64,000 bases of DNA, taken from assembly GCF_900142475.1 (NCBI RefSeq), contig NZ_FRAY01000003.1, forward strand, positions 1-64,000, read 5' to 3'. A program made the translations under genes and the position numbers. This document shows, in pieces, positions 33,060-34,183 of this stretch (position 1 is the stretch's first letter; every line of letters starts with the position of its first letter). The stretch is from Fibrobacter sp. UWH4 (lineage in GTDB: Bacteria; Fibrobacterota; Fibrobacteria; Fibrobacterales; Fibrobacteraceae). The notes under the pieces were generated by a model, which was not told the origin of the DNA, did no database searches, and saw only the letters and a list, made by a program, of their open reading frames with translations.

Positions 33060-33126
33060 ACGGTAAATATAGTTTTCCGCTGTGGAAACTTGTTTTGATG
33101 GCTTATGTAAAATTTTTGTACGCCCC

Positions 33127-33155
33127 TTGCCAAAAAATTAAAACTTAGGTACAAT
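33127..33155 (+). promoter_or_regulatory. Strong sigma-70-type promoter of the attenuator/small-gene transcript
   Basis: TTGCCA and TACAAT are exactly 17 bp apart. Transcription would start near 33162, giving a leader of about 133 nt before the ATG at 33295. Confidence 0.7.
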
Positions 33156-33167
33156 TTCCGCATCCCC

Positions 33168-33242
33168 GAACGCATCTCGTCTAAGGAAAGGCGAGGTGCG
33201 TTCTTTTTAATTTGGGTTTCACGGCCCTTTGCGAAAGAACGC
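33168..33242 (+). promoter_or_regulatory. Predicted transcription attenuator (terminator / antiterminator)
   Basis: Segment 1 (33168-33181, GAACGCATCTCGTC) pairs over 14 bp with segment 2 (33190-33203, GGCGAGGTGCGTTC), followed by TTTTT: an intrinsic terminator 6 nt after the predicted start site. Segment 3 (33234-33242, AAAGAACGC) is a perfect complement of GCGTTCTTT (33198-33206), so 2:3 pairing would destroy the terminator. A further perfect hairpin, GGTCGCA/TGCGACC (33258-33274), precedes the ribosome site. The signal sensed is unknown. It could also simply make a ~45-nt terminated RNA. Confidence 0.6.
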
Positions 33243-33294
33243 CTCTAAAAATCAATCGGTCGCAGCTTGCGACCATAACAACGGAGGCTATAAT

Positions 33295-33519
33295 ATGAGT
33301 CGCAGTTACAAGAAACCGTTTGTGAAAATGGCAAAGGATGTTGAATTTCAGAAAATGGCGAATCGAGAGTTTCGTCGTAAGGCAAAAAATGTCCTGCGGG
33401 GTTCTGCCGATCCCGAGCGCCACATGCCGGAAAAGAACCGCAAAGAGGGGGATTGTTGGGGCTGGCCGTCCGAAGGTGTCAAACTGCCTATTCCTAACCC
33501 GGAGGGCATTAGGAAATAG
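33295..33519 (+). CDS. Small basic protein of the MSRSYKK type, unknown function
   Basis: 74 residues; the start at 33295 is fixed by ACGGAGG 8 nt upstream. It is very basic at the N-terminus (MSRSYKKPFVKMAK) with FANREFRRKAKN-like helices (ANREFRRKAKN) and a Trp-containing end (CWGWPSEG). Small proteins starting MSRSYKK are widespread in bacteria and phages and uncharacterised; the composition suggests RNA or ribosome binding (inference). It is controlled by the upstream terminator/antiterminator leader. Confidence 0.75.
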   Translation: MSRSYKKPFVKMAKDVEFQKMANREFRRKAKNVLRGSADPERHMPEKNRKEGDCWGWPSEGVKLPIPNPEGIRK

Positions 33520-33550
33520 TGAAAATCGCTCGAAAAAAGCTAAATGATTT

Positions 33551-33588
33551 ACAAATGTATTGACAAATGTGTGTACAATAATTATATT
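33551..33588 (+). promoter_or_regulatory. Promoter and repeat operators of the toxin-antitoxin pair
   Basis: TTGACA (33560-33565) and TATATT (33583-33588), 17 bp apart. ACAAATGT occurs twice (33551-33558 and 33564-33571), flanking and overlapping the -35 box with 13-bp spacing, a likely site for autorepression by the antitoxin. Confidence 0.7.
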
Positions 33589-33602
33589 AAGAGGTAGAAT
33601 TC

Positions 33603-33872
33603 GTGGCTAGATGGAATTCTGAGAAAAATGAATTGTTGAAGGTGACGAGACATGTTTCCTTCGAACAAATCGAAGAAATTATGCGGAACAAAGAGGTCCT
33701 GGATGATTACGAACACCCGAATCAGGAGAAGTATCCAGGGCAGAGAATTATGGTTGTTAGGATTGAAGGCTACTGTTATGTTGTTCCTTACAAGCCTGAA
33801 CCTGATGGAGATATTTGGCTTAAGACTATTGTGCCGAGCAGAGTCGCGCAGAGAAAATATGGAGGTAAGTAA
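33603..33872 (+). CDS. BrnT-like toxin (DUF497 type)
   Basis: 89 residues. The WNSEKNELLK start, VSFEQIEEIM helix, DDYEHPNQEKYPGQRIMVV strands and SRVAQRKYGG end match the DUF497/BrnT group, ribonuclease toxins of the RelE-like fold. The start is GTG, 8 nt after GAGG. It overlaps the following antitoxin gene by one base (TAATG). Toxin-first order is typical for brnTA. Activity is inferred from family. Confidence 0.75.
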   Translation: MARWNSEKNELLKVTRHVSFEQIEEIMRNKEVLDDYEHPNQEKYPGQRIMVVRIEGYCYVVPYKPEPDGDIWLKTIVPSRVAQRKYGGK

Positions 33873-34183
33873 TGTTGTCTTTTAAGGAACATGCGAAAAA
33901 GTTCAATCTGGACGAAGAGGAACAAGAAATCCTTGCCGATTTCGAGGCGAACCATGCCGGCAAGCCTCAGATTACCGAAGAACGCAAAAGAGAACTCGCG
34001 TCGTTGGCTAATGCCTCCTACAAGTTTAGGGCCTCGGCAAAGAAACCTTATACGATTCGTCTGCACTCTGGAGCTGTCGATGTCATCAAGGCTTTCACGG
34101 ACCGCTTTGGCGGGCACTACCAGACCCTTGTCGATGATGCTGTGATTGAACTTGCTGCCAAACTCAAAGCCGAGATGGTGTAG
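33872..34183 (+). CDS. BrnA/CopG-like antitoxin
   Basis: 103 residues. An acidic N-terminal half (FNLDEEEQEILADFEANHAG) should wrap the toxin. The C-terminal half (KKPYTIRLHSGAVDVIKAFTDRFGGHYQTLVDDAVIEL, residues ~58-95) has ribbon-helix-helix character with a short strand (YTIRL) and YQTLVDDAV. It is translationally coupled to the toxin by a 1-nt overlap and probably binds the ACAAATGT repeats in the shared promoter. It ends 6 nt from the convergent L,D-transpeptidase gene. Confidence 0.72.
   Translation: MLSFKEHAKKFNLDEEEQEILADFEANHAGKPQITEERKRELASLANASYKFRASAKKPYTIRLHSGAVDVIKAFTDRFGGHYQTLVDDAVIELAAKLKAEMV

Follow-up and report, generated by a model that had tools for sequence, protein, structure and literature searches.

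The trp leader of Bacillus subtilis, together with TRAP, governs two steps of gene expression: transcription termination and, in the read-through RNA, sequestration of the Shine-Dalgarno sequence. The antiterminator of this leader lies upstream of the terminator and its ligand is known. A different layout is found in type III toxin-antitoxin loci such as ToxIN and AvcID, where a promoter is followed by a short RNA, a terminator and then the gene. The vmlR leader of B. subtilis is reported to combine transcription and translation attenuation ahead of a protective gene and to prevent leaky expression, its driver being ribosomes that stall on an upstream ORF (PMC9226507).

How bacteria silence costly defence and toxin-antitoxin genes and then release them jointly is little understood. 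Here we analyse a leader at positions 33106–33288 (forward strand, like all window features given below) of a 64,000-nt stretch of the Fibrobacter sp. UWH4 genome, hereafter called the window. We found no description of this leader in the listed literature, mainly open-access, on Fibrobacter regulation, toxin-antitoxin attenuation, dual attenuation, DUF1016 and defence islands. On the basis of sequence comparison and modelled folds we propose, with a probability of roughly 0.6, that it would act as a dual-output, default-off RNA switch in which a third segment passes on to the ribosome site whether the first hairpin is intact, and that this unit has spread before defence-type genes.

Promoter and segments of the window leader

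The promoter named in the initial annotation, TTGCCA-N17-TACAAT, is indeed present at 33127–33155 (score 10/12), and RNA would start at about 33162. Upstream of it lies an AT-rich element, TGTAAAATTTTT (33106–33117), which is common to the promoters of the leader family described below. Of 129 distinct leaders, 118 have a match to this element within the preceding 200 nt, and −35 and −10 hexamers of the window type, with the same spacing, are found in 108 of the 129. The exact upstream element plus −35 hexamer occurs at three places in the 3.70 Mb genome (control: 0); at the third, it precedes an AlbA_2 gene whose terminator-like leader is of another kind. We also noticed a second dispersed leader class, for example at L175:1498–1630 (G000:C1:326770–326902) and in L222, L207 and L208. 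It has a similar promoter, carries a hairpin and U-run directly before the Shine-Dalgarno sequence and stands ahead of AlbA_2 and DUF1016 genes. In 80 genomes this class gives 25 matches that span at least 117 bases with at least 85% identity, and these include places just ahead of two DUF1016 genes in the window's genome.

Segment 1 (33168–33182) and segment 2 (right arm 33189–33203, U-run 33204–33208) form the two arms of a predicted terminator-like hairpin, which is also seen in helix covariation. Earlier described as a 14-bp hairpin with a T run, it is present with that run and turns out to be slightly longer: 33168–33203 holds 15 pairs including G-U, followed by TTTTT. Its energy is −25.8 kcal/mol with a z of −5.95, and 0 of 200 shuffles were equally stable; the whole window leader has a fold z of −4.67. 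A small apical hairpin (33214–33227) is predicted between segments 2 and 3. This element is variable in sequence and closes most of the 2:3 folds that were inspected across copies.

Segment 3 (33234–33246), assigned from fold and covariation, comprises AAAGAACGC (33234–33242) and CTC (33243–33245). More specifically, AAAGAACGC is perfectly complementary to GCGTTCTTT (33198–33206), as had been claimed, and CTC can pair with GAG (33193–33195), so that segment 3 is the alternative partner of segment 2. The same segment contains a putative anti-Shine-Dalgarno sequence. GCCTCT (33241–33246), which overlaps AAAGAACGC, pairs in the predicted leader fold with the Shine-Dalgarno sequence GGAGGC (33283–33288) and thereby encloses the third hairpin. 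That hairpin, stem 4 (GGTCGCA/TGCGACC, 33258–33274), appears in the predicted fold exactly where it had been placed before. It is optional in the family, being missing from copies such as L083–L086 and L172–L174, and has two-sided changes in six of its seven pairs among 101 copies. The initial annotation mentions neither the pairing of GCCTCT with the Shine-Dalgarno sequence nor the repetition of the leader across the genome and the genus, ahead of other genes.

Rfam 15 gives no match at gathering score in the window, and in the leader region only a chance-level match to SCARNA7 (E 4.9, 33503–33600); 12 relative loci give no Rfam match at E ≤ 0.5. No tRNA is found in the 64,000-nt window. Resemblance to integron attC sites was judged by eye only, and no matching core site was recognised. 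CsrA-type binding was likewise set aside, as GGA is present in some loops and missing from others when inspected by eye.

A dispersed leader family and the genes behind it

Our searches indicate that the window leader belongs to an RNA family dispersed through the genus Fibrobacter. With a covariance model made from 19 copies we obtained 245 matches (table sum) in 68 of 80 genus genomes, with at most 10 per genome, a count in which strict filters may lose weak matches and copies with inserts may be counted twice. At phylum level, matches occur in 77 of 167 genomes; they are nearly all in Fibrobacter and two sister genera, with single weak ones in two more distant genera. DNA search with 33100–33310 matched 64 of the 80 genus genomes, short promoter-only matches included, and many of the longer matches stop just short of the start codon; the copies stand ahead of differing genes. 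The genomes compared are related and often incomplete. The exact leader pattern has 0 matches in viral contigs. One occurrence, L184 (JAEEHV010000059.1), lies in a contig labelled Gastranaerophilales, which is perhaps a mis-binned Fibrobacter contig or the result of transfer.

We also took 100 further genomic places of model matches, hand-picked for spread (L075–L174). In eight of these loci a second leader of at least 39 bits stands more than 300 bases off within the same stretch of about 2.9 kb, and the units therefore cluster. Palindromic inserts of about 60–75 nt interrupt the leader in L022, L044, L094, L103, L129, L164, L165, L166, L168, L169 and L171, where they form a second terminator-like hairpin followed by U. 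Similar-looking inserts are located at the −35 region in L118–L120, L131, L158 and L164. The Rfam search of the 12 relative loci gave no match for the palindromic inserts either.

According to family assignments, the leader heads many unrelated toxin-antitoxin, DNA-damage and candidate phage-defence genes, with DUF1016/YhcG, DinD, Schlafen-AlbA_2, ORF6N and toxin-antitoxin genes dominating. A first ORF of at least 30 aa follows 117 of the 129 distinct leaders, and these ORFs fall into about 32 clusters. The tallies are family names and not tested functions, and Pfam families may overlap on one protein: DUF1016_N (32), YhcG_C (29), SLFN_AlbA_2 (17) and Bro-N (15), followed by the rarer ORF6N (8), RhuM (2), Fic (2), RelB (1) and BrnT (1). 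NCBIfam names DinD in 21 cases and a HigA-type antitoxin in four, among others, and 33 first genes match the PADLOC candidate defence family PDC-S02. Judged by coordinates, only three of the eight DUF1016_N matches in the window's 3.70 Mb genome lie just behind this leader, so that many genes of this kind lack it. Genes of known or candidate defence types (CRISPR-Cas, restriction, Sacsin-like) were found in four of five neighbourhoods examined, which had been picked for holding arrays and not at random. These are Cas1, Cas5 and CT1975-like Cas genes in G000, a cytosine methylase with LlaJI endonuclease in G062, LlaJI in G058 and a Sacsin/NOV-type ATPase in G060; the neighbours in the fifth, G054, fall outside this count.

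In the window itself, the first gene behind the leader is an ORF for a basic 74-residue protein, MSRSYKK... (33295–33519). The view that the leader is dedicated to this protein is not supported: its gene comes first behind only 4 of 117 copies. Matches to the protein occur in 10 of 111 family genomes, some of them interrupted by a stop or break, and it has no Pfam family. It gives a weak match to phrog_20038 (a PHROG of unknown function, E 0.0021) and one weak phage match, in an Enterococcus phage. Among relatives, the gene is broken by a stop in L010, L012 and L022 (G086, G039), and in G086 the BrnT/BrnA-like genes behind the broken gene remain open. Corresponding genes in the window are located at 33603–33872 (GTG start; PF04365, BrnT, E 3e-4) and 33872–34183 (PF14384, BrnA, E 0.0043). 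Both Pfam matches are below the curated cut-offs (21.5 vs 34.5 bits for BrnT and 17.9 vs 26.1 bits for BrnA), and on these scores we call the genes at 33603–34183 BrnT/BrnA-like only. A strong promoter-like site (33560–33588, score 11/12) stands directly ahead of the BrnT-like gene. Therefore the leader need not control the toxin pair of the window, which may be expressed independently of it.

Conserved helices and the proposed switch

Alignment of the copies indicates that three helices are conserved and covary across 101 distinct copies: 1:2, the alternative 2:3, and the pairing of segment 3 with the Shine-Dalgarno sequence. In the smaller alignment (MAFFT, 19 of 25 leaders, six with long inserts left out) the OFF structure, i.e. 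1:2, 3:Shine-Dalgarno and stem 4, has 96.4% of cells paired and six pairs with two-sided changes. For the ON structure (2:3 and stem 4) the values are 96.1% and seven pairs, and stem 4 supplies four of the two-sided pairs to each. Slid controls on this alignment had 35–51% of cells paired. The large alignment, with 105 matches (101 distinct) from 100 sources and most tandem-insert copies left out, has 93.5% of cells paired in the OFF helices, with two-sided changes in 15 pairs and 218 cells; slid versions give 38–50%. This alignment was fitted to OFF and not to 2:3. The 2:3 helix alone is 92.8% paired, as against 50–69% in slid versions, and has 76 two-sided cells; such cells count sequences and not independent events. 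The covariation score of 2:3 exceeds all 500 shuffles. Two of the five 2:3 measures fail against the shuffles, the observed value being reached in 92 of 500 for two-sided pairs and in 291 of 500 for further pair types, and one G-C pair in the GAG:CUC part fails in 39 of 99 rows. By covariation, the strongest support for 2:3 is provided by the tail pairs just past hairpin 1:2. Columns 55/118 and 56/117 occur in UA, UG, GC and CG forms, and columns 55 and 56 are partnerless in the OFF fold.

The anti-Shine-Dalgarno pairing is kept in 96.4% of cells among the 101 distinct copies, with a C-G to U-A change in two of them. In the DinD-type leaders L031 and L038 both strands are co-changed, GTCTC being found with GAGAC. 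Conserved unpaired sequence is sparse; it consists mainly of AA-GG in the first loop and a run that follows segment 3. Conservation of the second pairing had been put forward in the initial annotation as its own test, and 2:3 is conserved and covarying in both alignments. Judged by these comparisons, the leader structure is under selection.

We suggest that the leader works as follows. Hairpin 1:2 would form first on the emerging RNA; in prefix folds of the window copy it is complete by 44 nt of RNA and persists to full length. In copies with a good U-run it would end most transcripts early. In a read-through RNA with 1:2 intact, segment 3 would be free to pair with the Shine-Dalgarno sequence, a structure indicated by covariation, and translation would presumably be prevented. 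If 1:2 is prevented or undone, read-through would be followed by formation of the long 2:3 hairpin and the ribosome site is predicted to tend to open. Segment 3 would thus serve as a relay: only RNAs in which 1:2 is actively prevented would get both extended and translated. With 2:3 reporting this prevention to the ribosome site, leaky read-through would stay silent, making the switch leak-proof. The candidate blocker of segment 1 is a protein, RNA, helicase or nuclease. The helices are read from sequence comparison; that the leader terminates, represses and releases, and that it has a trigger, we infer.

Predicted openness of the Shine-Dalgarno sequence, computed on 124 of 129 leaders (five without a recognisable Shine-Dalgarno sequence were excluded), has a median of 0.02 at full length, 0.47 without segment 1 and 0.02 without segment 2. 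When segment 1 is merely blocked, the leaders whose minimum-energy fold pairs at least 3 of the 4 Shine-Dalgarno bases drop from 105 to 43 of 111. As these 43 still pair, the model predicts only a partial release. Compared with the segment-1-blocked fold, OFF is more stable by a median of 14.5 kcal/mol (111 leaders), which argues that the leader would be off by default and that the ON state would need an outside agent.

The most serious competitor is a purely translational switch in which 1:2, as a 5′ structure, keeps segment 2 occupied, the U-run plays no part and regulation concerns access to the Shine-Dalgarno sequence alone. Near-universal pairing of the Shine-Dalgarno sequence would fit it well. 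So would the state of the tail, as the longest U-run is at most 4 in 51 of 114 copies (counted on 114 of 116 simple leaders), usually because a G or C interrupts it and pairs with segment 3. We take the breaking of the U-run while 2:3 is kept to mean that 2:3 is selected more strongly than a flawless terminator tail. With such imperfect U-runs, termination may be weak or absent in many copies. However, 5–8 U are found within the 9-nt tail in all 114 copies, and the copies with palindromic inserts bear a second hairpin followed by U. On balance we consider control at translation only to be unlikely, but well ahead of the other alternatives.

The initial annotation saw here the logic of an attenuator or riboswitch of no known class. 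Taken as a classical attenuator under a ligand, the leader would have segment 3 draw segment 2 away from segment 1 early enough to prevent termination. Part of this is supported: the pairings are mutually exclusive, 2:3 is conserved and covarying and Rfam is negative. Segment 3 as the usual antiterminator is not supported. It lies (33234–33242) downstream of the U-run (33204–33208) and is made about 30 nt past it, when 1:2 is already complete; it is therefore too late for the alternative fold to remove the terminator at the termination decision. A classical attenuator thus appears quite improbable, and segment 3 is better explained as a relay acting on the ribosome site.

Somewhat less probable still is a role in trans for the short hairpin RNA once released, either as a regulator or as an antitoxin like those of type III toxin-antitoxin systems. 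The element is multi-copy, a terminator-like hairpin directly follows its promoter and toxin-antitoxin genes are among those behind it, but no repeat array is seen in the leader, no ToxN-like family is found among the 25 most frequent first-gene matches, and the conserved partner of segment 2 is in cis.

Ribosome-mediated attenuation via a leader peptide starting at an ATG or GTG in the right arm must be ranked lower again. The initial annotation saw no leader peptide; the window copy does have a GTG start in the right arm (33197, VRSF-stop). An ATG or GTG is found there in 98 of 114 copies, and in 20 of these 98 the frame is open up to the gene start. Nevertheless, no conserved leader ORF was found across the copies when the 98 were checked for frame, and the would-be peptide differs greatly between copies in both length and frame. 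The start is absent from 16 of 114 copies in which the helix is kept by compensatory changes, and it would lie within the hairpin, and within the polymerase, at the termination decision.

Least probable is a DNA repeat spread by recombination whose palindromes merely resemble RNA structure: the copies are dispersed, mosaic and sometimes tandem and can hold palindromic inserts, but three mutually exclusive helices, the Shine-Dalgarno pairing among them, have compensatory changes, and the position directly ahead of the start codon and the fixed promoter spacing also speak against it.

Comparison with known leaders

A wider role of the dual-output switch can be suggested only tentatively. In Fibrobacter, defence-type, DNA-damage and toxin-antitoxin genes scattered over the genome might form an arsenal that shares one RNA switch and one type of promoter. 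One signal, for which infection is a conceivable cause, would free all of them together by stopping the first hairpin, and leaky transcripts would never be translated because of strand exchange. A conserved leader common to unrelated gene families would give a handle on joint release in a genus with few genetic data, and its trigger would be searchable with one reporter.

Compared with the vmlR leader (PMC9226507), the Fibrobacter leader differs in having no conserved upstream ORF. Its relay logic, by which the ribosome site would be informed of the terminator state, offers a simple way to build a leak-proof control.

The order of promoter, short hairpin RNA and gene resembles the layout of ToxIN and AvcID. 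Unlike these loci, the Fibrobacter leader lacks a repeat RNA antitoxin and stands ahead of genes from many families. A close parallel to the proposed joint control of termination and the Shine-Dalgarno sequence is the trp leader of B. subtilis with TRAP. Unlike in the trp leader, segment 3 of the Fibrobacter leader is located downstream of the terminator, and both decisions would be linked by strand exchange.
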